Program-made: the position numbers and the translations under genes | Shown: positions 1 to 55,047 of the stretch, piece by piece | Layout: each line of letters opens with the position of its first letter | How positions within the stretch are numbered: position 1 is the stretch's first letter | The notes under the pieces: generated by a model | Databases searched by the model: none | Seen by the model: the letters and a program-made list of their open reading frames with translations, nothing else | Told to the model about the DNA's origin: nothing | Assembly: GCA_032718865.1 (NCBI GenBank) | Contig: JALUTQ010000007.1 | Span: 310,001 to 374,000, forward strand | Origin: Tilletia caries | Lineage: Eukaryota > Basidiomycota > Exobasidiomycetes > Tilletiales > Tilletiaceae | Length of the DNA stretch: 64,000 nt | Direction: 5' to 3'

Positions 1-3000
1 GTCTGGACAAGCTCAAGGAGACGGTACGTGGACAGTCGTTGCGTCTCTCTCAGGCCAACATCTTCTGGTATCATATTCTCTCCCTGAAGCTCACTGTCTG
101 GTCAATTTCAGGTCGCAGCCGTGTCTGATCTCCAAAAGTCTCTCGCGGTCAAGAGGACCCAATTGGAGGCGAAGAATGCGGAAGCCAACGAGAAGCTCCA
201 ACGCATGGTAGCCGACCAAAAGTCAGCAGAAGAGAAGAAGGCCGCTTCGATTCAGATTCAAGGCGCGCTCGAGGTCCAAGAGCGCGAGATCCAGGAGCGG
301 AGACAGGTCGTCATGCGCGACCTCGCCGACGCACAGCCCGCCGTCGAAGAAGCCCAGTCCAGTGTTAGCAACATCAAGAAGCAGCACTTGACCGAAGTCC
401 GTTCGATGGGTAACCCGCCCGCCCCCGTCAAGAATGCGATGGAGTCCGTCTGCATCATTCTCGGTCATAAGATAGAGAATTGGAAGACGGTCCAGGGTAT
501 CATCCGTCGCGACGACTTCATCGCGTCCATCGTCAACTTTGACACCGACCGGCAAATGACACGCCAGATCCGGGAGAAGATGATGCGGGAATACCTCAGC
601 AAGCCGGATTACAACTTTGAGAGCATCAATCGCGCCTCGAAGGCGTGCGGTCCTCTTGCCAAGTGGGTGATTGCTCAAGTCCGCTTTTCCGACATTTTGG
701 ATCGGGTCGGTCCCTTGCGGGAGGAGGTTCACTCGCTCGAACAACAGGCGCTTGAGACGAAGGAGTCGGCGTCCGAGATCGTCACCATGATCGCCGATCT
801 CGAGGCCAGTATTGCGCGCTACAAGGACGAATATGCGATGTTGATCTCTGAGACGCAGGCGATCAAGGGCGAGATGGAGCGAGTACAGAAGCGCGTCGAT
901 CGGTCGATCCAGCTTCTTGACAGCTTGGGGTCGGAGAAAGAAAGATGGGAGGCTGCCAGTCGGACATTCGACACGCAGATGAGCACCATCGTCGGTGATG
1001 CGATGTTGTCGGCGGCATTCCTAGCGTACGCGGGCTTTTTCGATCAACAGTATCGAGAGGCGATGTGGTCTGGCTGGGTGGTCCACCTCTCGGATGGGGG
1101 TATCAAATTAAAGCAGGAGCTCAGCTTTGCGGACTATTTGTCGACAGCGGACGATCGGCTGGATTGGCAGGCGAAGAGCTTGCCCCCGGACACTCTTTGT
1201 ACCGAGAACGCCATCATGCTGAAGCGGTTCAGTCGTTATCCCCTCATCATCGACCCCTCGGGACAGGCGACCACATTCCTTGTCAACCAATACCGTGACC
1301 GCAAGCTCACGGTGACTTCATTCTTGGATGAAGCCTTCCTTAAGAATCTGGAGAGCGCCCTCCGATTCGGTAACCCCATCCTCATCCAAGATGTCGAGCA
1401 TCTGGATCCGATCATCAATCCCATCCTGAACAAGGAACTTCGCAGGACCGGTGGGCGAGTGTTGATCAGACTTGGTAGCCAGGAGATCGACTTCAGCCCT
1501 TCGTTCACCATGTTCCTGTCGACCCGGGATCCGTCGGTCGACTTCACGCCTGACGTGTGCAGTCGCGTCACCTTCGTCAACTTTACGATGACTCGCAGCT
1601 CGCTGCAAAGTCAAAGTCTCGATCAGGTGCTCAAGGTTGAACGGCCTGATACGGACAAGAAACGGACGGACTTGATGAAGCTGCAGGGTGAATTCCGGCT
1701 GCGACTCCGACACCTCGAGAAGAGTTTGTTGAATGCGCTCAATGCGAGCGAGGGAAACATCCTCGATGACGACAAGGTTATCGACACGCTCGAAACACTC
1801 AAGAAGGAAGCGGCCGAGGTCACGGCGAAAGTCGAGGAGACGGACGCTGTCATGCATGAAGTGGAGGCGGTCACGGCCGACTACATCCCCCTTGCCAAAG
1901 CATGCTCGTCCGTCTTCTTCGTGCTGGACCAACTTCACCTCATCTCGCACTTTTACCAATTCAGTCTACGCTTCTTCCTCGACATCTTCGACTACGTTCT
2001 CCGCCGGAATCCCAATCTGCAGGGCGTGACGGATACGAAGGAGCGCCTGGCCATTCTTACCCGCGATTTGTTCGTTGTCATTTTCGAGCGAACGAGTCGG
2101 GCGTTGGCACACAGAGACCACATTATGCTCGCTGTTCTGTTGGCGCAGATCTGGGATCGAGAAGGCGGTAGCTCGAGCGATGCAGCTGGCAACTCAGCTT
2201 TAGAGGGCGACGAGTTCGACTTCCTGCTGGAGGGAGGTGACGCCATCCCTGTCGGAGCTGCACCGGTCGAGGCGGGCGAGGCTGTCGATGCGCTTCTGTC
2301 CCCGGAGCAAAAGCAGCGGGTCATGGCCTATCGGAGAGTTCGGTCGCTCGCCAAGATGGAGGAGCACATGCGAAGCCAGTCGGAGGCTTGGACGACTTTG
2401 CTGACTGCGGGAGAAGCTGAGAAGAATGTGCCTAAGTTCTGGGAACGAGCCGAAACTGAGGAGCCTTCGAGTGAGTGCTGGTTCCCTGCTGGTTTCCCTG
2501 TAGTGTAGTACGGGAGTCGCCTTACTGACACAGCTGGAGCTTACAGACGAGTTGAGCGAACTTGTGCGCTCGATCCTTGTGGTGAAGTGTCTTCGACCGG
2601 ATCGGATCGTATCGGCCATGTCCCTGCTCGTGAATGCTGTGTTCAAGAAGGACATTCTGGCAGACACTTCCTACGACCTACAAGCGCTCGTCAACGACGA
2701 AATCTCTGCGTCAACACCTGTCGCCTTGTGCTCAGTTCCTGGCTTTGACGCCGCTTACCGAGTCGACAATCTCGTCAAAATGGAAGGCGCAAGGTGCACG
2801 TCGGTGGCCATGGGTTCGCAAGAAGGATTCACCCTGGCTGATCAAGCCATAACGAACGCCGCACGGTCGGGTGCCTGGGTCCTGCTCAAGAACGTGCATT
2901 TGGCGCCCTCGTGGCTAAGTCAGCTGGAGAAGAAGATGCTCAGCCTCAACCCGAACCGCTCCTTCCGATTGTTCCTCACCTGCGAGACCAATCCGGTCAT

Positions 3001-41984: not shown

Positions 41985-43066
41985 AGTTCTCACTCGCCCG
42001 CTTCGTCGCCTGGGACTTCTGGCCTTTCTGGCAAGGACTCGTCTTCACCGGCATGGCGGCATCTGGGTCCAGGGTCGTCGCACACGAGTGTGGTCATCGG
42101 GCCCTCAGTCCTAGCAAGACCATCAACAACGCCGTCGACTGGGTCTTGCACTCTGCCCTGATGGTGCCTCACCACTCATCAAGGCTCGGACAGTTACTTA
42201 CAGTTGTCCATTTTGGGTATACAGTACAGTACAGTTACAGTTATAACTTACCGCCAGCGCCTACAGTACAGTTACAGTTACAATTAAGTTACTTTAAGTT
42301 ACTACAGTTACTGTATTTTTTTCGCCGCGCACGGACCTCCAACCTCAGTTTAAGTCACTGCTTAAGTCACTGTAGCAGTAACTAACAGTTACTGTAGACA
42401 AAGTCTCAAAGTAACTGTAACTTAAAAACTCTTTAAGTCACATAACGGAACTTAAAAAGTGTTTTAAGTCACAGTGTTGCCCTTCAAAATTGTCACCTAA
42501 CAGTCCTCGAAAGTGACTGCAACTGTAACTCGATTTCCGGGTAAATGTTTTCGCCAAGGAAATGAGATTTGACTTAAGTAGGTGTGATTGTGTGAAGTAA
42601 CTGTAAGTAACTGTACGCGGCTGTCAGTGGCTGTAAGTGCTTTCTCAAACTGAAAGTGGCTGCCAGTAGTTTTGTTCAACTTAAACAGTGATGTATAGTC
42701 ATAGTAAGTTTGAACAGTTTGGGGCCCGAAAAAAAATTCCAACTTAATCAACTGTTAAGTTGACTGTACCCGGGCCCTACAGTTACAGTCAACTTAATTT
42801 TTTTCCGGCTCCGCCGCGTACAGTACAGTTACAGTTATGACTTATTAAGTCAACTTACCTACAGTTACAGTGGGCACAGTTATACAGTCGCCGGGCCTTG
42901 CCACTCATGGCGCATTTTCCACGCACGTCACCACGCCGGCACCGGTCACCTTTCCCGCGACGAGGTCTTTGTCCCCCGCACACGCGTCCAGCGTGGTCTC
43001 ACGAACCTCCGCCCGCTTCCCACTGATGAGGACGAAGCTGATACCGTTCGCTGCCAGGCAGCGTGA
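41985..43066 (+). pseudogene. Delta-12 fatty acid desaturase fragment, split by a MITE
   Basis: Reading LARFVAWDFWPFWQGLVFTG, then VVAHECGHRALS (first His box, HECGH) and NNAVDWVLHSALMVPHHS, stops at the MITE at 42180. It resumes exactly after it as SWRIFHARHHAGTGHLSRDEV (second His box, HARHH) and FVPRTR, ending at a TGA at 43064-43066. About 15 extra bases sit between FTGM and VVAHE and look like short tandem duplications. The third His box and the rest of the enzyme are absent. The family desaturates oleoyl chains in the ER membrane; this copy cannot. Confidence 0.8.
42180..42900. mobile_element. hAT-like MITE, CAAGGCYCGG family, member B
   Basis: 721 bp, ends CAAGGCTCGG and CAAGGCCCGG inverted, exact 8-bp target duplication CCACTCAT (42172-42179, 42901-42908). 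The interior repeats AACTGTAA-type motifs as in member A but in reverse orientation and with extra length. It interrupts the desaturase reading between the PHHS and SWRIF codons. Confidence 0.88.
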
Positions 43067-45021
43067 AGCACCGAAGAGAGAAAAGAGGAGACTTGGAGGG
43101 GAATATCAAATATGGGATATGGAAGCGAGTAGCTTCGGCAGTGGGGAGACAAGCCGGAAGGGAGGAGGTAGATTGACATTGAAGGGAGGCAGAACTGCAG
43201 GAGCGGTGAGCAAAGGAAATGTGAACAGTGCACCTGTGGCACCTGTTACACCGCCTCGTAGATGCCTTGTAATTCAATCTGGGGCACCCACAAGGCACAA
43301 TCTGGGCCAGATGAGCTAAAACGGAAATTATGTAAGAGTCTGCTCACCATCGGCGTCAGATCGCCGACTGCCCAAGTCGCACCGACAATGATCAAAACAA
43401 CACTCTGAAAGGGGTGCCATTCCCCTTCATCTTCCATCCCTTTCCTCAATGGCGACCTCAAGAACTACAGCTTTTTGCAGCCAGAGTGTAGCTGAAGTAT
43501 TCAGGTAGTGAATGAGGTAGCTATTCCTTATTTTCAGCGTGCTTAGAGCTGATTCCGACTGGTAGCTGACGCCTGAAGATGACCAATGCTGACTTTGCCC
43601 AGTGATTTCAAGCATTTCTTGCCTCTCTGTGCGCTGGCGACTGTTAAGAAACATCATTTTGCTCACATTTTCAATCCCATCCATACCGATTACTCACACA
43701 TCCTTCCTTTTCATGACTTCTAACTTCTCTCATATGTCAACAGTATAGACCTCTTTGAAATACAGCTCTTTTCTCTCTCTTCCTGATTTCGTAGACCCCT
43801 CTGCTGCCCTCTGAGCTCTGACAGCCCGACTCGGGTCTCAATACCTGTCTGCTTTTCGGGCCGCATATCGAGAATAAGGTACGTACAGCTCTTAAATCTC
43901 TATGGGAGTATCTACGTATACTGATGCACCGATCCCCCGTTTTTGGTCCTCTCTCAGATTCTGTCTGAGTAGTTATGAAGGTAGATGTCCTCTGATTCTC
44001 GAGTTTTCAGTAAGCACACACTTTCTCTCATTGTTATGGTATCTGACCTCAAAACACTTTTCTAGAGGTATTTCCTGACTCTATAGCTCTACACGATCCT
44101 TTCAAGGTCTCGATCGCGCTCCTGGGACCATTTTGCGCGTCTCGAGATATGCCATTTCTGTTTGTACCTTATCATAGTCAATACATGTCGTTTTTCCCTG
44201 CCAATCCTCATAGACTGGTCCGAATCTCAATCGGAAAAGCTCTATGAGCTCTCCTTGACTATACCTTTCGAACGAACCTATCATTGTTTTTGGAGATTTG
44301 GGTGTTGAAAATCGAGTTGCACTTCGTACACCAAGAAGTGTCTAGAGGTACACGTCGCAATTTTTGCATGGGATTTACGGGTTACCACAAACGACCACAC
44401 ATCCATACAACAAAAATAATATACAACAAAAACGGTACCTACGTGTTTTAATGGATTAGAGGACCTTGTCCTCCAGATTTGAGAGCATTCTGGGAAGTAT
44501 TGGCTGCACACGACAGGAAAAAGAGTGGTTTGATCGAATCCCTATTGAATCCCCATCGATTCCACATCGATTCCTGACCATCATCCTTCACAAACACGGA
44601 TTCAAGAAGAGAAAAAAGGCAGCTGTCTGATTGCTGGTACTTACAGCTACCTATAGAGCCATCATAAACAGCTTTCTGATGATAGGGATAGGCTAGTCTT
44701 ACATTTCAATTGCGAACATGTTAAAAGATGAGAAATAATGATTCCAGTATTGCTTCCACTCAGAGGAATTCCCGAAGTCGACGCGTCTGCTAGACTCACT
44801 TTCTATCTACTGATTTATCATGAATACATGAAGCAAGCATTGAGAGCCTTTACCGTGTTGGAACAGGGATTCTATAGAACATGGGCATCAAAGTAATGCT
44901 GCAATTGACATGATTCCTATCGATATCTCGAGCTATCATAAACCAATGATCCATTTTCTCCCATTCAAAGTACTCCCATAGTGCAGAGTAATACCAGTAG
45001 TGCCATTTCCAGGTGCTTCAT

Positions 45022-45392
45022 TGTGCTAGCAGAGGTATGATGATCACCTTGATGATCACTTAGGTTTCCATTTCTTCCGTTTCCCTTCTCTCCGATTCAT
45101 TCCGTTCCGATCCGTTCCGCTCTCCTTTCTCTCGCTCCACGTTTCCTCCACTCCACGACTCTCTATTCGTTGCGTAACGACTTGCCACTTTCCTAGCTCC
45201 CTCTCACTCCTCTCACATTGCGATCTTTCCATATATACTTCCCCGAAGCTACCAAGCACAGTGTACGTATATAGCGACTCGATTCTCTTCTTCTCTCCCT
45301 CTAGCAATGCAGCCTTCACAAGATACATTTTCCGCCCCTTTTCTTCCGAGATCTTCCCTATTCTTTCAGGTAAATACACTCTTGCCAACATA
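45022..45392 (+). repeat. 5' LTR of the gypsy element
   Basis: 371 bp starting TGTGCTAGCAGAGG and ending CTTGCCAACATA. The target duplication forces the 3' end to be ...CATA rather than the usual ...CA. It contains ATATATAC at 45231-45238. Confidence 0.93.
45231..45238 (+). promoter_or_regulatory. Possible TATA box in the 5' LTR
   Basis: ATATATAC about 210 bp into the LTR; the only TATA-like site in it. The same site is in the 3' LTR. Confidence 0.4.
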
Positions 45393-45404
45393 TGGTGATG
45401 AGAG
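45393..45404 (+). promoter_or_regulatory. Putative primer-binding site
   Basis: TGGTGATGAGAG begins directly at the end of the 5' LTR; the TGG start is the usual complement of a tRNA CCA end. The priming tRNA was not identified. Confidence 0.4.
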
Positions 45405-45740
45405 GGACTCTCTGCTGACACCGACAGCCGGAACTGCAGATCCCACCCCTTGCCCCAAGCATACTCTTCGGTCCTCAATCGCACACGGTCGCCATAACCC
45501 ACCTGATTGTTGCACCCACCCCTCCGGTCTCTGAACCCACACATTCGGTCCTTGTACCCACCAACTCGGTCTCATCCACCAACTCGGTCTCACCCACCAA
45601 CTCGGTCTCATCAACCAACTCGGTCTCTTCGACCTTCTCCCGTCGCTCGCCTTCCTTTTTCTTCAGGCTCTGCGTCGAGGTATCCTCCGCTTCCTTGGAC
45701 CGGCTCGCCACATCCGGCTCCAAACCAGCTACTCTCCACG

Positions 45741-47582
45741 ATGTCCGACAACAACTCGTTCACCATTCCGCCCGGCCAGTTCGACAACGACGTCTTTCAT
45801 GACCAGGCCACCGAACAAGTTCCGGTTACTCCTCGACCGACGGACATTCTCCTGGAGATCCGGTCGGTGTCTGCGCGCTTGGATGGGTTCAACAGGCGGC
45901 TCGGCGACATGGAACGCTCTCAGCGTCTCCAAACAAGCCACCCCCCTTCTCCCTCTCCAGACGTCCGACCATCGACCACCATCGAACCAGTCGCAGCAGT
46001 GACAGCGCCTTCCTCGGATTCCGGCATTCTCGCTCGGGATACCGCTCCGGCCGCTTCGTCGAACGTCAATGACCAGCGAGGCGCATATCGAACTCGACAG
46101 GATGCCCCCGTCCCGCCCCACATGGGCCGCACCGCGGCTGCTCTTGCCGCCACCACGTTCTCCCTCCCGCCTCGCCCAAGTCCCGGGACCGCTGCTCCGG
46201 ACTCCCCAACTCCTGGAGAACGATACAAGTCCATGAGCAAGGGCGAGAAGTCGAACGTACGGCGAGCGCTGGCGGGTCTCGGCCTCTCGGTTCCGATCTT
46301 GATGGGTCTCGTGTCCGACCCAACCGAGGATCAAGACTTCGGATCCTCAACCGAGGCCGGTGACGACTCCAACCCACCCGCACAAACTTCTTCGTCCAGC
46401 GAGGAGAGTCCTCTTCGACCAACCACCGCCTCCGTCGACACTCCGGTCCTGGGGGTCGGATCTTCCCCCGTCACCAGTTCACCGACGTCGCGCATCGAGC
46501 CAGCTCCTAACATAGGAGCTGCTGTATCGAACAACACTCCCGTTCCTGTGTCGACCAGGCCGATGACCTGCAAGACGGAGTGGATCGGCGAGTTCGATGG
46601 AGACCCATCCCAGCTGGAGGACTTCCTCACTCGGCTTCGTGATCTGATCAGATCGGAGACGCAACCAGACCTGATTTCCGCCTGGATCAAGGCCGTCCTT
46701 CGCACCCTACCACGGACGCTAGCTGGAAATGCTGCTGTCTGGCACCAGGGCCTGTCGGATCTTGAGGCCGCCGACCTCACCTCTCTCGACGCCTGGTCCG
46801 CTGCCATGCGTGCGGCCTTTCCCGTCAATCGTGGGCAACTCCGTCGCGACGCTCGGGCACGACAGTGGAACGCCTTGGACGAAACGTCCATCGCGTACTA
46901 CTTTCACAAGGTTCGGCTGCTTCGCCAAGCGTTCGGCAAGGACCAGCCCGATGATTCCCTGGTCACAGACATCAAGGACGGACTGCCCGAAACGCTCATC
47001 GGGCTGTTGCGTCTGCCTCGTGTCGGAGCCTCTCTGGCTGACCTTCGGGCTGAGCTCGGCGATTGGGAACCGAACTGGCGGATCCAGTACAAGACTCCCC
47101 TTCGCTCTTCTCGGCTCACCGATCCAGGCACGGCTTCCTCTGTGGCATCCACGTCCACACCAGCTCGCGTCGGTCCAGTCGTTGCCCCGGCTGCGACCCG
47201 CATACTCCAGACGACCATGGGACGCTCCGCCTCGGCGCCGACGACTCCCGCTCCTTCGATGAGCTCGTCGTCTCGCGCCGCCCCTCCCATCTCAACCATC
47301 CCGCGCTCGATCTCCAAGTTCGCGGCCGCATACGATCCTACACGGGTCATCCAAGCTAGCAACGGTCAGCCTCGACGCTACCGGCCGCCCGGCAAGGATA
47401 CCGTCATGGATCTCAAGGCCCCATGCTCTTACTGTGGCGGCGACCACTTTAACTTCGAGCACGACTACCTCAAAGCTCAGGTCCGCACGCTTACCGTGGA
47501 CGACGATGACTATGAGGAGTACTTGTGGGATGGCACACCTGAGGAGGACGGAGAAGGAGAGGATGACGTTGACCCTCCGTGA
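45741..47582 (+). CDS. Gypsy Gag polyprotein
   Basis: 613 residues from the ATG at 45741; the frame is open upstream to 45507, but that stretch is leader sequence rich in repeated Thr-Arg-Ser. The N-terminal half is Ser/Thr/Pro-rich and probably disordered. The middle (about residues 275-450) carries the retrotransposon Gag core: EWIGEFDGDPSQLEDFLTRL, then AWSAAMRAAFPVNRGQLRRD and AYYFHKVRLLRQAFG. Near the C terminus lies one knuckle-like motif CSYCGGDHFNFEH, a CX2CX3HX4H pattern in place of the standard CX2CX4HX4C. An acidic tail (DDDDYEEYLWDG) precedes the stop. It assembles the virus-like particle and binds the element RNA. Confidence 0.9.
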   Translation: MSDNNSFTIPPGQFDNDVFHDQATEQVPVTPRPTDILLEIRSVSARLDGFNRRLGDMERSQRLQTSHPPSPSPDVRPSTTIEPVAAVTAPSSDSGILARDTAPAASSNVNDQRGAYRTRQDAPVPPHMGRTAAALAATTFSLPPRPSPGTAAPDSPTPGERYKSMSKGEKSNVRRALAGLGLSVPILMGLVSDPTEDQDFGSSTEAGDDSNPPAQTSSSSEESPLRPTTASVDTPVLGVGSSPVTSSPTSRIEPAPNIGAAVSNNTPVPVSTRPMTCKTEWIGEFDGDPSQLEDFLTRLRDLIRSETQPDLISAWIKAVLRTLPRTLAGNAAVWHQGLSDLEAADLTSLDAWSAAMRAAFPVNRGQLRRDARARQWNALDETSIAYYFHKVRLLRQAFGKDQPDDSLVTDIKDGLPETLIGLLRLPRVGASLADLRAELGDWEPNWRIQYKTPLRSSRLTDPGTASSVASTSTPARVGPVVAPAATRILQTTMGRSASAPTTPAPSMSSSSRAAPPISTIPRSISKFAAAYDPTRVIQASNGQPRRYRPPGKDTVMDLKAPCSYCGGDHFNFEHDYLKAQVRTLTVDDDDYEEYLWDGTPEEDGEGEDDVDPP

Positions 47583-47680
47583 GTTGAGGCTCGAGCAGTT
47601 CTTGCCTTGCCTTCTCTACACCCTTTTACGACGAGTTCCATGTTCTCATAATTGTTCCCTTCCCCCTGTTGTAGCTATCC

Positions 47681-50600
47681 TTGGAGCCTGGCCTTGCGCC
47701 CTCCATGTTCCCTGCTGAAGCTCTCGAATCGAAACCGACTCTCACGTCCAATGATCATCCACAACCTTCGTCTGATTCAGCTGGGCTATACTTCGCGGAT
47801 AAGAGCATCTTTTCCATCGAACGCACGTTACGGCCCAACGAGTCCGCCCCTCCGCTCGCTCAGGAGAAGCGTGCCTTCGGGCGAGTCGTGGTCCTTCCCG
47901 TTCCGTCTTCGACCGGCACTGGCCAGGGATATCGCAACCACGTTCCGTTGTCCACGCATGTGCGCGTGAACGACACGGATGGTCGGGCTTTGTCCACCCT
48001 GTTGGATACGGGGGCGTCCCTCTCCTGCATCGACGCCGCTCTTCTCGCCAAGATGGGTGGCACTCCGTCCGGCCGGCCCATGACCGTGCACGGTGTTGGA
48101 TCCTCAAAGACGCTGGGATGGGTGACTCTCCCCCTCTTCCTTTCCGCCCAGGATCCGCACGGCAAACATGTCCATCTGGAGGCTTCGCAGGATTTCCACG
48201 TCCTGCCGAGTTTCCCTCCCGGCATGTGTCTTGGCTTAGACTTCATCGATGCACACAGCATCAGCATCTCCCCCGTCCGTGGACGGGCTCGCTTGGGTCG
48301 GTATACCTTTTCGGTCCATGAACGCTTGGACAAGCCTTTCTCGGCCGACGTGGAGCTTCGCACGACTGCAGCCGTCACCATCGCTCCGCGGACCCAGGCT
48401 TGGGTGCAGGTCAACGCAGCCTGTCTTGCGCCCGGCGTCGACTACACCATCGTCCCGCGTCTCAGCATCACTCCAGATCAGGGTGTGTGCCTGACCGGAC
48501 CGAACGGCCTGTTGACCCATGGGCCTGTTTGCCACATCTTGCTTGGGAATTACGGAGACGAATCGTTCACCTTGGAGCAAGATACCTCGGTCGCCGACGC
48601 CGCTGCTGCTCACGTAGGGGACGTCATGACCGCTGCCACCCCGGACGTGTTCACTCTCACTCCTGGATCCACCTCCTCCGCGGCGGAACCGCCCCCCCTT
48701 CGTCCTTCCGCCCTGGAAGTATCCGGATTACCATTCGACCCCTTTGAGGAGGACACCTCTGACGTTTCGGCGCTCACGAAGGATGCTGCGACCGTGATGG
48801 TAGACGAGATGTTCAAGGTTGGCATCGACGCCCATGGTCATGCCCCACCCGCGGTCGTCACACTCCTTCGCCATCATCAGGCAGCCTTTGCCCTGGATGG
48901 GCGGCCAGGCCAGGTCGTCGACGCCGAGATGGCGATCCGTCTGCAACCTGACACGAACCTGCAGTCGGAGGCTCCGCGACGGGCCAGTCCCGACAAGCGC
49001 GCCGCAATGGATTCCGCCATCGATCAATTGTTAGACTGGGACGTGATCGAACCATCTTCCAGTCCGGTGTCCTTCCCAGTGGTTATGGTCAAGCAGCGCT
49101 CCAAATGGCGATTCTGCATAGACTATCGCCGTCTCAACATGCACACGGTTCCGGATCGCTATCCGCTTCCAACAATCGATGCGATCTTCAACACTTTCTG
49201 CGGAAAGAAGGTCTTCAGCTCGCTCGACGCCATTCGTGGCTACCACCAGCTCGGTATCCAGGAAGATGATCGTTGGAAGACGGCATTCGTTTGCCATCGT
49301 GGGCTATTCCAGTACAAACGTATTCCATTTGGCCTTCGGAACGCCCCAGCGTTCTTCCAACGCTTCATGGATCGGGTTCTCGGACCGCTCCGATGGAACC
49401 AGGCCGTCGTCTACATTGACGACTCCGTCATCGCGTCGGATACCATGGACGAGCATGTCGCCGCGCTCGAGAAGCTGTTCGTTTCGGCGGAGAAGGTCGG
49501 CCTCAAATTCAGCCCGGCCAAATGCACATTCGCTGTGCCCTCCCTCGTTCTTCTCGGTCGCAAGATATCCGGCGCCGGTGTCGCCATTTGGAAGGACCGT
49601 GCCTCGGCGGTGGAGAATCTTCAGCGGCCCACCACCCTCCAGGAGTTGTACCATACGCTGGGACTCTTCGGATATTATCGGGCGTTCGTTCGCGGTTTCG
49701 CTGAGCGTGCCTCCCCGCTCACGCGTCTCCTGAAGGGTTGGAGGTATGAGTCCGCCGATGGCCAATCCAGGCTGGTCAGCGCCGACGGCAAGACCGTGAC
49801 TGCGAGCCGGGTGCCGATTGCGTGGGGGGACGAGCAACAAACCAGTTTCGACGCCCTCAAACATGCCATCGCTCACCCTCCCGTCCTCGCCCACCCCGAC
49901 CCCTCCAAGCCATACATTCTCTACACAGACGCAAGCAAGGACGGCCTCGCTGCCATTCTTCACCAGGTGCATTCGGAACCGGTGCCGGCTGCTGTCGATC
50001 CAGTTCTGGCCTCGATGACTCACATCTCCATGCCGCACTTGCCGTCCGGTTTGGCTCGCGGTCAATGGGAACAGTGGCTGCTCGCGGACCCCTTCTTTGG
50101 TCCCGTCCTTCGTCGCGTGCAGGCGTCCGGGATCGATGAGGAGTGGGTGGTGTCGGACGGTGTGCTGGTTCGTCGGTCGGACGACCGTGTCGCTCTACCC
50201 GTCGCTGCTGTTCCGATCATCATGCGCGCTGTCCATGACGATCAAGGACACTTCGGCTTCACCAAGACGTTCTTAGCCGCGACACGACACTTCTGGCGGC
50301 CCCAGTTGTCCTCCTTGGTTCGGGCTTGGGTGAAACATTGCAGCACCTGCCAACGCACCAAGTCTCTCCCCAAGGTCGGCCGCCTCGACATCTCAAACGA
50401 CCCCTCGCTTCCGTTTGAGACCATCTCCTTCGATCTCTTGTACGGGTTCCCTCGTTCTCAGGCCGGGAATGACGCCGCCCTCGCCATTCAGGACTTGTTC
50501 TCCCGGATGGTCTTGCTGACTCCTTGCCATAAGGAGATCACGGCCGAGGGCGTCGCCGCCATTCTCGCCGACCGGGTTCTTCGGCTGGGTTGGAGGCCTA

Positions 50601-51928
50601 AGCGGCTTGTCGCCGACTCCGAGTCGCGCGTCTCGGGCGCAGTTGCCTCGTCCCTGGCGGCCTCGCTCGGCGCCTCGCTGACTCCATCCTCACCCTATCA
50701 TCAGCAAGCCAACGCTGTGGAGCGGGCAATCCAGACCGTACAGCAGGTCTTGCGGTCCATGGCAGTTGACTCCAAGAGTCATTGGGACAAGCGTATCCTC
50801 CCCGCGGTGGAGTTGGCGATGAACAGTTCCCCGGCCTTGTCCACTGGTTTCCGGCCGTTCGACTTGGTGTTCGTTGCCCATCCCGACGTCGTTCATGCTG
50901 TCTTCGATTCGCAGGAATATGGCGGCGTGGCCTCCTTTGACGAGCGGCTGGCGGTGGCGGCGGAACGCTTGGAGGATGCACGTCGTGCTATCGTCGTGGC
51001 GCGTTCCGATCAGAAGCGTCGGTATGACGGTCGGCGTGCTGCGATTCCGGTATTGCGGCCCGGGATGCAAGTCTGGGTCCGATTGCGCGATCGCCCTCTT
51101 CCGAGGACCATCCGGGACAAGATGGATGCACGAAAGAGCGGGCCGTTCGAGATTGTCGAAGTTCTGTCCGCCCATCGCGTCCGTCTGCGGCTGCCGGCCG
51201 ATGTCGATGTGGATCCGATTTTCAGCGTCGAACAGCTGGACTTCTTGCCCACTGACGATGATCCATTCGTGGCCGACCGTTCCCCCTCCACCACCACACT
51301 GCCATCCTTCCCTTCCGGTCGTGCAGTTGCCCCAGCTTCCGATGCGGTGATTGAGGACGCGGCCGCGCTGGCCCCCGACCTTGAGGTGGTGGAATCGGAG
51401 GAGGTTGCGATGGAGTCACGAGTGCGTCGAGAACCAGGGAACCTCCGCGAGTTCCAACTGGGCTCTCTCGCTCCCGCCCGGTCCGCTGACCTGGATATGA
51501 TCCTGCGGGGCCCGCTATTCCGCCCCCGACGCCTGACCATCGACGGGGAGGAGCTCGTCTTTGCCGAGCGGCCGGTGGCATTCTTGTCTCGTCTGACAGG
51601 GATTGCGGAACGGAAACTGGTGGCCGCCGAGTTGGAACTGGTTTGCTTCGCTTGGGCATTCCACAAGCTCGCACATCTGCTCGAAGGGGCATCAGTTACC
51701 GTCGTCACCGACCATGCACCCATGGAACGGATGCTTACCTCGTCCAATGCCACTGCATATGGCCCCACCATTACACGTTGCCGGGCTTGGATTCTTCCAC
51801 ATCTGTCCAACATCCGCTTCGTTTACCGACCAGGTCCACGCCACACGAACGTCGATGCCCTCTCCCGCCTTCCGATCGACCAGGGACGGTCTTCTTCCGA
51901 GGGGGGGGATGTGCTAGCAGAGGTATGA
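47681..51928 (+). CDS. Gypsy Pol polyprotein: protease, RT, split RNase H, integrase
   Basis: 1415 codons, open from a TTG at 47681; the first ATG in frame is 47705. Frame is -1 relative to gag, with about 100 bases between the gag stop and this frame. Protease: LLDTGASLSC (Asp109). Reverse transcriptase: RFCIDYRRLN and VVYIDDSVIA (Tyr578-Asp581). RNase H first strand: ILYTDASKDGLAAIL (Asp750). Integrase zinc domain: His852, His857, Cys887, Cys890; catalytic core Asp918, Asp979, Glu1014; GPY/F module SGPFEIVEVLSAHRVRL. After a Pro/Glu-rich linker comes the rest of RNase H: PVAFLSRLTG, LVAAELELVCFAWAFHKL (Glu1317/Glu1319), VVTDHAPMERML (Asp1344) and YRPGPRHTNVDALSRLP (Asp1392). In ordinary gypsy elements this segment directly follows the first strand, before integrase. 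The stop codon lies 19 bases inside the 3' LTR. Confidence 0.95.
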   Translation: MEPGLAPSMFPAEALESKPTLTSNDHPQPSSDSAGLYFADKSIFSIERTLRPNESAPPLAQEKRAFGRVVVLPVPSSTGTGQGYRNHVPLSTHVRVNDTDGRALSTLLDTGASLSCIDAALLAKMGGTPSGRPMTVHGVGSSKTLGWVTLPLFLSAQDPHGKHVHLEASQDFHVLPSFPPGMCLGLDFIDAHSISISPVRGRARLGRYTFSVHERLDKPFSADVELRTTAAVTIAPRTQAWVQVNAACLAPGVDYTIVPRLSITPDQGVCLTGPNGLLTHGPVCHILLGNYGDESFTLEQDTSVADAAAAHVGDVMTAATPDVFTLTPGSTSSAAEPPPLRPSALEVSGLPFDPFEEDTSDVSALTKDAATVMVDEMFKVGIDAHGHAPPAVVTLLRHHQAAFALDGRPGQVVDAEMAIRLQPDTNLQSEAPRRASPDKRAAMDSAIDQLLDWDVIEPSSSPVSFPVVMVKQRSKWRFCIDYRRLNMHTVPDRYPLPTIDAIFNTFCGKKVFSSLDAIRGYHQLGIQEDDRWKTAFVCHRGLFQYKRIPFGLRNAPAFFQRFMDRVLGPLRWNQAVVYIDDSVIASDTMDEHVAALEKLFVSAEKVGLKFSPAKCTFAVPSLVLLGRKISGAGVAIWKDRASAVENLQRPTTLQELYHTLGLFGYYRAFVRGFAERASPLTRLLKGWRYESADGQSRLVSADGKTVTASRVPIAWGDEQQTSFDALKHAIAHPPVLAHPDPSKPYILYTDASKDGLAAILHQVHSEPVPAAVDPVLASMTHISMPHLPSGLARGQWEQWLLADPFFGPVLRRVQASGIDEEWVVSDGVLVRRSDDRVALPVAAVPIIMRAVHDDQGHFGFTKTFLAATRHFWRPQLSSLVRAWVKHCSTCQRTKSLPKVGRLDISNDPSLPFETISFDLLYGFPRSQAGNDAALAIQDLFSRMVLLTPCHKEITAEGVAAILADRVLRLGWRPKRLVADSESRVSGAVASSLAASLGASLTPSSPYHQQANAVERAIQTVQQVLRSMAVDSKSHWDKRILPAVELAMNSSPALSTGFRPFDLVFVAHPDVVHAVFDSQEYGGVASFDERLAVAAERLEDARRAIVVARSDQKRRYDGRRAAIPVLRPGMQVWVRLRDRPLPRTIRDKMDARKSGPFEIVEVLSAHRVRLRLPADVDVDPIFSVEQLDFLPTDDDPFVADRSPSTTTLPSFPSGRAVAPASDAVIEDAAALAPDLEVVESEEVAMESRVRREPGNLREFQLGSLAPARSADLDMILRGPLFRPRRLTIDGEELVFAERPVAFLSRLTGIAERKLVAAELELVCFAWAFHKLAHLLEGASVTVVTDHAPMERMLTSSNATAYGPTITRCRAWILPHLSNIRFVYRPGPRHTNVDALSRLPIDQGRSSSEGGDVLAEV
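51899..51909 (+). promoter_or_regulatory. Polypurine tract
   Basis: GAGGGGGGGGA directly before the 3' LTR; the expected plus-strand primer site. It also encodes part of the last residues of Pol. Confidence 0.8.
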
Positions 51929-52280
51929 TGATCACCTTGATGATCACTTAGGTTTCCATTTCTTCCGTTTCCCTTCTCTCCGATTCATTCCGTTCCGATC
52001 CGTTCCGCTCTCCTTTCTCTCGCTCCACGTTTCCTCCACTCCACGACTCTCTATTCGTTGCGTAACGACTTGCCACTTTCCTAGCTCCCTCTCACTCCTC
52101 TCACATTGCGATCTTTCCATATATACTTCCCCGAAGCTACCAAGCACAGTGTACGTATATAGCGACTCGATTCTCTTCTTCTCTCCCTCTAGCAATGCAG
52201 CCTTCACAAGATACATTTTCCGCCCCTTTTCTTCCGAGATCTTCCCTATTCTTGCAGGTAAATACACTCTTGCCAACATA
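51910..52280 (+). repeat. 3' LTR of the gypsy element
   Basis: 371 bp, identical in length to the 5' LTR and differing at one position that I can see. Followed by the TTCAT duplication. Confidence 0.93.
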
Positions 52281-52920
52281 TTCATCGTGAATTTCAAAGC
52301 ATACAGGTGGTCATTGCGGTCAAAGGAAGGAAGTAGGTACGTAAAATTGCAATGACAATTGAATCATCTGCAGTCTTCCCACGCTCCCAAACGATCTCCA
52401 GTGCTTTGAAATCTCTGATAGTCATGAGAAGATAACTATAGGTATCCTCTGAAGAGATTTTATTGCATATAACTTAGTATACTGATGCTCATGGTAGCAA
52501 AGGCAGTGACGTGGTCCTGATGATGAGGAAGGCTCTTTCTGCACAGCATCTCCCCTCCTGGGTCACTGAGGGCCTCCAAAGTCTTGAATTTTTGCGCAAG
52601 TTAGTCACTGAATACATATGCTTCGATACTTTTTGAGTCTTTGCTCCAAGTGGTATGAGCATCGAGCGGTTTGCAGGCATTATGAAGGAAGGCAGAGGAG
52701 TGGATCTCACGATTATTCCGACTTGGGCAATGGGGCATTTCCACGTGGGGGGTCCCGCTTTGCCGCGTGCCACAGCTTGAGCCTGATGGTGAGCAGATTA
52801 TCTAAGACTTTAAAATTTCCGTTTTAGCTCATCTGGCCCAGATTGTGCCTTGTGGGTGCCCCAGATTGAATTACAAGGCATCTACTAGGCGGTGTAACAG
52901 GTGCCACAGGTGGAACAGTG

Positions 52921-55047
52921 AACATATGTATCTATGAGACATCAACCTTCCACGACGAAACTCGAGAGGACGAAACACCCTGAAAACCAGGTGGCGCAAT
53001 GTACTCAATCATTGTCGAAAAGTCCACGTGTTAGACGCCCGCGCTGTGCGCGGGCGTTAGTTACTCCTTGTGAGAAACAAAGCCGTGAGACTCACATGAA
53101 GGACAGGTTGTCGCTCAAGTGAACCTCAACTTGAGAATCAAGTGAGCAACAGACTGACCTTCACATGATATTCAATTTAGAAACAGCAGCCTGAGGGACG
53201 AGAAGGGGGCTACGTCCCTCGCAAACAGTTGCAGACACCATGTAGCGACGTCGTCTACAGGGTAGGAAGCTATGACAGCCCGTCACTCGTGTTTTGAAAG
53301 TTTACACAATGGTATATATAACACAATTTTCGGGATCTTTTATCATTGTGATGCGTGCGTCACAGTGGTAGGGTGCCCGTCTGGGGTTCGGACCTCGTGA
53401 GTTCGAGTCCACCGTCGGATAAACGTTTTTGGCCTAATGCGGTTGAGAAACACTTGAGCCTCAAGTTGAGAATCACATGAACCTCAACTTGACTCTCAAA
53501 TGATCAACACGTATGAGGTTGCCTGTTCTCAATTGACTCTCAACTTTTTGAATTGCTTGAGGCTCATGTGAACTCAAGAGTTGATACTCGGTTGAGCCTC
53601 AACTCGTATCACGTATGCCTCATTTACGAACAATTTCTGGCCTGCCACAGTACGACTTCCACCTCAGGCTCGATTGCCTGATGGCAGGTATGTAGGTTAC
53701 CTATTTGACCCAACGGACAGTTACAGTTCAGGACGCGAGCCGGTCGATTCAAGTCCAACCTCTGACGTTCCTGGTCTCTCGTATAAGATCGAGAAGTGCG
53801 GATTTGGGCTTGCTCACCATCTTTGCCTCCCCCCCTCTTCTGATCCTCGCTCGTCTTCTGTTTTCTCCCAAACCTGGCACCACACTAACCCACTACGCTC
53901 TGATCTACAGCTTCGTTCATTCAATAATCCCACTTCTCGTTCCTCTCCAGGTTCTCTGACAGCGATCAACCTTGACATCCGACACCAGTGCGCCATCTTT
54001 CGCCGGGCTAGGTGCACCATCTGCTCCAGTCGCGCTCATTAAGATTCGCCAAGTGGGCCTGAATCTTGGCAACAAACGTTCGACGGTCGAAAAACGTACA
54101 TCATTCGTTGCGTACCACGCAATCGCGAACGATTCTGACCCGGTCGGGGAAACGTAAGAAGGGTGCACTCAACGTCCCCGAACGACGTCGCCGACCCTGA
54201 AGCTGTGCCTGTTAGGTCTTGCAGGCCCTCCTTTGGGCGATCCCACTCAGTTCATCGCCAATCGTCGCTCTCCACTAGCAGGACGTCGAACCAACATCGT
54301 CCACCCCTCCCTGCGCATCGCAGATGCGTGCCTCGATGTTGGGATCGTCCATGTACGGGAACGGAACGAGCATTCTGCACTCTGGCCGTCCTGGTATCAC
54401 CCAGGCTCGCAACGTACGCCGAACGAGTTCGCCCAGCAGCCCATTGCGTTCGCCGCACAATCAACCTGGCCTCCAAGGACCATCTGCAGACGGAAACGCG
54501 TTCTGGAGAGCTTCAGGGACAAAAAGTTGACAAGGTAATTGTGACTGGGGAGTGAATGGCCGCTACACCACCAGCTGTCCCCCCTTCTTGTCTTCCGTTT
54601 GTACTTCTTTTTCACCACCAACTTCAATCCACCTTTTCACCACCAGCCTGCGTCGCGGACGTACCACAAGTAGGGTTGTCCCAGTACCAATATTCTCACT
54701 GACGCTCACGCTGGCGAACGTATACGCTCGATCGAGGGAACATTCCAAAGCACCCTTCGCTTCAGTCACATCCTGGCATTCCTGAAACGAATAAGTGTAT
54801 TCTGATCTGAAAAGAACCTTGAAGTGCCAACTCTGTGCCCACGAGGAAAGGTCTGCTGGTATTCACGTTGCGGCCGCTCCAACGTCGGCCTGAATGTGAT
54901 GGCCAGCTAAGGTCGATGTCCATCGCGCTTTCGAGACACATCGGAAGGCGGCCCACGTTCTTTGTCGGCAAGGCTGCAAGAATGAAAATTGTGCCGTTGG
55001 CGAAGAAAGGAAGAGGAACAATGCATTTTGTGCCTTCCTACCCCCCC
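52921..55047. other. Repeat-rich spacer with coding-like scraps
   Basis: 53095-53620 is packed with CTCAAGTTGAG/CTCAACTTGAG-type motifs in both orientations and surrounds a tRNA-like stretch. 53972-54157 (LGAPSAPVALIKIRQVGLNL...) and 54233-54538 read like protein but in different frames and belong to no family I know. Nothing else recognised. Confidence 0.35.
53352..53422 (+). ncRNA. tRNA-like sequence, possible SINE head
   Basis: A-box-like GTCACAGTGGTAGGGTGC and B-box GAGTTCGAGTCC at tRNA spacing. The anticodon-type arm has only a five-base loop and the acceptor ends do not pair. It is flanked by repeated CTCAA/TTGAG motifs. Confidence 0.35.

Follow-up and report, generated by a model that had tools for sequence, protein, structure and literature searches.

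Integrase encoded between two parts of RNase H in a lineage of Ty3/gypsy-type long terminal repeat retrotransposons from Tilletia

How can a retrotransposon obtain a working RNase H when its integrase is encoded in the middle of that domain? The question is raised by a 64,000-nucleotide stretch of DNA from the wheat bunt fungus Tilletia caries (assembly GCA_032718865.1, contig JALUTQ010000007.1, positions 310,001 to 374,000 of the forward strand; hereafter the window, in whose own numbering coordinates are given), containing a long terminal repeat (LTR) retrotransposon whose Pol frame places the integrase (IN) between a first part of RNase H (RHn), which follows the reverse transcriptase (RT), and the remainder of that domain (RHc). 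We regard it as likely that the element represents a Ty3/gypsy-type LTR lineage in which the integrase is nested in the turn between RNase H strands 2 and 3, and in which both RNase H parts fold together in cis.

Domain order of Pol and position of the break

The features of the Pol frame are given below, with residues counted from the stop.

47675..51928, + strand: Pol open frame of 1417 codons (stop-to-stop open reading frame)
47960..48133, + strand: aspartic protease (PR) region (Pfam Asp_protease_2, E 6.5e-5, 24.0 bits, slightly below the cut-off of 24.3)
49091..49558, + strand: reverse transcriptase core (Pfam RVT_1, E 9e-31)
49823..49978, + strand: RHn, first RNase H part, strands 1-2 with catalytic Asp752 (Pfam RT_RNaseH_2 positions 1-52; Ty3 857-908)
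50210..50365, + strand: integrase zinc-binding HHCC domain (Pfam Integrase_H2C2, E 5.5e-15)
50417..50740, + strand: integrase catalytic core with Asp920, Asp981 and Glu1016 (Pfam rve, under its cut-off)
51068..51238, + strand: integrase C-terminal SH3_Tf2-1 (GPY/F-type) module (Pfam PF24626, E 4.8e-7)
51530..51874, + strand: RHc, RNase H from strand 3 onward with Glu1319/Glu1321, Asp1346 and Asp1394 (Pfam RT_RNaseH positions 30-90, RT_RNaseH_2 positions 55-100; Ty3 916-1009)

Pfam matches thus run in the order PR, RT, RHn, HHCC, integrase core, SH3_Tf2-1, RHc, and bear out an earlier sequence-only reading of the locus, which had described one uninterrupted frame (47675-51928) holding PR, RT, the start of RNase H, a full HHCC/DDE integrase with GPY/F module, and the rest of RNase H. 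The catalytic residues named in that reading were the right ones, numbered two too low, and are now Asp752, Glu1319/1321, Asp1346 and Asp1394.

The Pfam profile RT_RNaseH_2 was matched as complementary pieces, at positions 1-52 by RHn and 55-100 by RHc, and phmmer comparison with Ty3 Gag-Pol (7q5b_A) aligned RHn to residues 857-908, RHc to 916-1009, and IN to 1086-1427. Because the pieces are complementary in both comparisons, the break was placed in the strand 2/strand 3 turn (between Ty3 residues 908 and 916, and Pfam positions 52 and 55). Taken singly, the RNase H stretches match Ty3 weakly (i-Evalue 0.0026 and 0.36); RHc, with the C-terminal piece searched alone, scores 25.0 bits against RT_RNaseH_2 (cut-off 29.8), and with 47.3 bits this stretch clears the RT_RNaseH cut-off. 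Only the first strand had been thought to lie upstream of the integrase; strand 1 does, and the Ty3 alignment and structure models put the whole strand 1-2 hairpin there. Pfam finds no first strand in the C-terminal piece and no second complete RNase H in Pol, only complementary halves, so that the piece is upheld as part of one divided RNase H. With these small corrections, the observation is confirmed.

Spread, relationships and conservation of the split order

The T. caries genome (38.10 Mb in 40 contigs) was searched with the RT_RNaseH profile, giving 150 scored matches, many at full length and many spanning just positions ~29-90, the group to which the window copy belongs. RHc, RT+RHn, and IN queries were searched separately and their coordinates then combined (IN on the same strand within 700 bp; no more than 2500 bp beyond IN, an RHc row that extends into the RNase H core), with a repeat run adding 16 RHc rows. 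IN follows in 100 of the 104 RT+RHn matches that reach the RHn end, and RHc then follows in 96, the exceptions being four without an IN row within 700 bp and four without a qualifying RHc row; the counts are lower bounds, because only the best candidates were scored. In none of the 104 does an RHc core stand directly behind RHn, the closest being a 50-residue fragment 950 bp away. Normal-order copies of the same element, which would have left the window copy a lone rearrangement, were therefore not seen among these matches; the arrangement read at one locus holds, and its scope is a whole lineage. All three pieces share one open-frame length in 28 copies, 14 of which span 1229 to 1626 codons; five of the 28, including two of the 14, have an RHc match that ends early, between query positions 163 and 183 of 242.

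Three protein searches listed 199 proteins, all of which were then searched for the RHn, IN and RHc pieces: 123 had the order RHn-IN-RHc, 3 had RHn-RHc-IN, 72 were incomplete, and 1 had none. Every one of the 123 split-order proteins carries a Tilletia name (T. indica, T. controversa, T. laevis, T. caries or T. walkeri, by source label), answering the earlier suggestion to look for other elements of this order, and none of the 3 normal-order proteins does. The best 120 of the 240 matches in the first search were all Tilletia-named. The two further searches (17 and 88 matches, within length limits) brought 7 rows without a Tilletia name, 5 of them (P0132 and P0196-P0199) with a contiguous RNase H before the integrase; P0133 lists integrase domains alone, and P0134 entered only in the piece searches. 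Length and scoring limits apply to this host range, so absence outside Tilletia is not shown. Identity to the window Pol ranges from 42 to 78% (alignment of 109 of 134 proteins, picked for coverage). Split-RNase H elements are a lineage, not an accident.

In a tree built from 57 RT rows (21 normal and a sample of 36 split), split rows stood apart on one side of a branch with a Shimodaira-Hasegawa-like approximate likelihood ratio test (SH-aLRT) value of 98; the tree was a quick search with long branches flagged, without bootstrap or a copia/BEL outgroup, and lacks P0196-P0199, which were found after it. For 20 normal elements sampled from the same genome, all picked because RT_RNaseH matched them contiguously and over its full or almost full length, a chromovirus query placed RHc between RT and IN in 11 and did not place it there in the remaining 9, with L050 and L057 showing a weak RHn match (21 bits) beyond IN. 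Locus L057 also holds a split copy (C4:12158), so its high values for IN and RHc cannot be taken as representative of normal elements. The normal-order proteins P0196 and P0197 are 56% and 65% identical to the window in RHn, and only 24-30% in IN and RHc. A chimera, with RT-RHn and IN-RHc from different lineages, was considered and set aside, as this RHn likeness is unshared by the deep split copy L059 (only 40-41% identical to P0196/P0197 in RHn).

Conservation was scored over 110 rows (the window plus 109 proteins). E1319, E1321 and D1346 are retained in all 110, position 752 holds Asp in 107 (with one Asn and two gaps), and D1394 is present in 104 (6 gaps); in the integrase, D920 is present in 109 (1 gap), D981 in 108 (1 H, 1 gap), and E1016 in 107 (2 K, 1 gap). 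Between the window and 29 other best RHc loci, nonsynonymous divergence (dN) of RHc is 0.09-0.26, with synonymous divergence (dS) at least 1.19 or saturated, a saturation that makes exact dN/dS ratios unreliable and leaves their direction clear. On this evidence the C-terminal RNase H piece does not look like a relic. The RHn-to-HHCC linker has a median of 95 residues (range 43-113, 106 rows), and the linker from the SH3 module to RHc a median of 133 (range 78-188, 110 rows).

A probable reassembled fold and its rivals

Structure prediction, which had been proposed as a check, was carried out with AlphaFold. Model strands 747-753 and 757-769 both lie upstream of the break (model numbering shifted by 399), and the models with structural alignment favour RHn and RHc as one RNase H fold with the integrase looped out, at low predicted template modelling score (pTM) and less firmly than the sequence evidence does. 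Several points weigh against reading the models in this way. The pTM values of 0.41 and 0.48 leave domain packing uncertain, and the RHn-RHc contact was read off strand assignments and aligned lengths, not coordinates. Some foamy virus and HIV RT chains were aligned into the integrase core (model ranges ending at 609-639), itself an RNase H-like fold, and for the Ty3 RT-RNase H chain 4ol8_B the alignment was confined to RT (1..337). When the second model, in which residues 492-549 fall below a predicted local distance difference test (pLDDT) score of 50, was used for fold searches, the rows listed were mostly integrases and Pol polyproteins, with no RNase H among them; these searches are uninformative on RNase H. 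Insertion of the integrase in an RNase H loop, one of two options raised before, is supported by the Pfam and Ty3 matches, the census, and catalytic-residue conservation, and less firmly by the models.

In the proposed mechanism, RHn (on RT) and RHc (on the integrase end) would fold into one RNase H behind RT as in Ty3, with the integrase looped out on two flexible linkers. The protease may subsequently cleave one linker or both; RHc would then stay bound without a covalent link, or RNase H would connect RT with IN. We lean towards the view that RNase H is discontinuous throughout the lineage and that its active site could not form without the part of Pol that bears the integrase; RNA removal, DNA synthesis and integration would then be physically tied together in a nested or two-chain enzyme. 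The arrangement would go back to a single event that preceded the spread of the lineage. The simplest route would be a tandem RH-IN duplication, after which the inner RHc, the second RHn and the last IN were lost; alternatively, an integrase may have been captured in the RNase H loop and the old integrase lost.

The closest rival differs from this reassembled fold, of which it is a sub-case, in covalent state. Here the protease would free RT-RHn and IN-RHc, and RNase H would form only when the two chains pair within the same virus-like particle, which would couple reverse transcription to integrase. The long linkers, together with the low-confidence stretch 492-549 of the second model (pLDDT below 50), would permit such cutting, but the in-cis fold requires none, and we hold the two-chain form to be possible and not the probable outcome. 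It is very unlikely that the integrase segment is instead an intron, spliced RNA giving a normal RT-RNase H and unspliced RNA the integrase. In its favour, 20 of 24 loci have CAG followed by GT at the RHn end, and Gag and Pol are separated by a GT..AG gap resembling an intron; however, the donor consensus GTRNGT is missing from the H-Q-V codons, which vary, in each of 24 loci, and from the surroundings of the RHn end in each of 25. In 28 copies the frame stays open across the three pieces, and a spliced retrocopy, with RHc directly after RHn, was found in none of the 104 RT+RHn matches. With support from neither donor consensus nor spliced retrocopies, the intron reading was set aside.

RNase H activity of the split enzyme is a prediction, which leaves room for the idea that RHc is a relic and that a host enzyme supplies the function; we consider this highly improbable, given the invariance of E1319, E1321 and D1346 in 110 of 110 rows and an RHc dN far under dS. 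That the order reflects a misassembly or a lone rearranged copy, which had been named as a possible refutation, has next to no likelihood in view of the many dispersed copies and the 123 proteins of named Tilletia species; the assembly coverage stated in the available text of its genome paper is 317x Oxford Nanopore Technologies (ONT) and 1269x Illumina (PMC10684912). The preferred reading is a single RNase H reassembled in cis around the integrase.

The complete element and its known relatives

The element is complete within the window, with an LTR pair, a target-site duplication and a polypurine tract, as expected of an LTR retrotransposon.

45017..45021, no strand: target-site duplication TTCAT, left copy (repeated at 52281-52285)
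45022..45392, + strand: 5' LTR, 371 bp, with a single mismatch (45366) to the 3' LTR
45741..47582, + strand: Gag open reading frame from the ATG used as start in several homologs (open frame 45507-47582)
51899..51909, + strand: polypurine tract, within the end of the Pol frame
51910..52280, + strand: 3' LTR, 371 bp (LTR comparison), its bases 17-19 being the Pol stop
52281..52285, no strand: target-site duplication TTCAT, right copy

The LTRs, described earlier as near-identical, differ over 371 bp at one site (45366 T, 52254 G). For Gag, residue 1 of 8 of the 15 long homologs (P0002, P0032 and six more) aligns at residue 79. The Gag and Pol frames differ and do not overlap (47560-47720), and the gap between them, which has GT..AG borders, runs to 47674 and is rich in pyrimidines towards its end, resembles an intron whose splicing may serve Pol expression; fused Gag-Pol proteins of 1919-2093 residues are listed for 15 relatives. 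At its other end (51899-51928), the Pol frame takes in the polypurine tract and the 19 initial bases of the 3' LTR, and Asp1394, the last RNase H catalytic residue, lies 23 residues upstream of the Pol end. Inverted repeats of 99 bp (43231-43329 and 52814-52912; 99% complementary, 9484 bases apart) flank the element, whose insertion site may have lain between two copies of a different repeat in opposite orientation. Rfam gave nothing at gathering scores over 43000-53200. A dUTPase reading of the PR-RT interval was dropped (E 0.28 only, with no counterpart at E up to 1 in six relatives).

LTR elements are sorted by Pol domain order, and RT-RNase H is taken as one co-evolving unit, in the portion of PMC3248453 available. 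If the proposed reading is true, the success of this lineage would show that a single turn of the RT-RNase H unit can accommodate an insert of ~515 residues, RNase H fragment complementation would have a natural test, and it would become testable whether RT and integrase act as one complex. Domain-based annotation pipelines could label such a split RNase H as truncated. Gypsy is the commonest LTR type in the available text of two Tilletia genome papers (PMC9172201, PMC10684912), in whose main text the words 'integrase' and 'RNase H' are absent. The literature searched, in which subscription journals are little covered, held no description of an integrase-within-RNase H order, in agreement with the earlier statement that no such element was known.

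By homology of its RT, HHCC/DDE integrase and RNase H to Ty3, the element would be assigned to Ty3/gypsy. The Pol pieces have no Chromo match in Pfam at E up to 1 (P0132 has one), so that the window Pol lacks the chromodomain of chromoviruses. It also departs from the usual order PR-RT-RNase H-IN with contiguous RNase H. In Gmr1 elements the integrase precedes RT and is not known to interrupt any domain, whereas the Tilletia integrase comes after RT (Pfam). Gmr1 shares with the Tilletia element a changed integrase position within a Ty3/gypsy Pol, and is described, in the text available, as Ty3/gypsy with a Ty1/copia-like pol order (PMC2774666); because it is counted in Ty3/gypsy despite that order, we take Pol order as usual, not defining. 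Dual RNase H elements (Athila/Tat, retroviruses) likewise have an altered RNase H architecture, as far as the available text of PMC9040795 describes it, but possess two RNases H where the Tilletia element has one, divided. Normal-order gypsy-type elements of the same genome contain the same domains, the closer ones with 35-46% identity in RT (first RT piece), but have RHc between RT and IN (in the 11 of 20 loci noted above). Ty3 of Saccharomyces cerevisiae (Ty3/gypsy, Metaviridae) has a recognisably homologous RT, RNase H and HHCC/DDE integrase; its RNase H, however, is contiguous (857-1009), with the integrase from 1086, whereas the Tilletia integrase lies inside the turn that corresponds to Ty3 residues 908 to 916.

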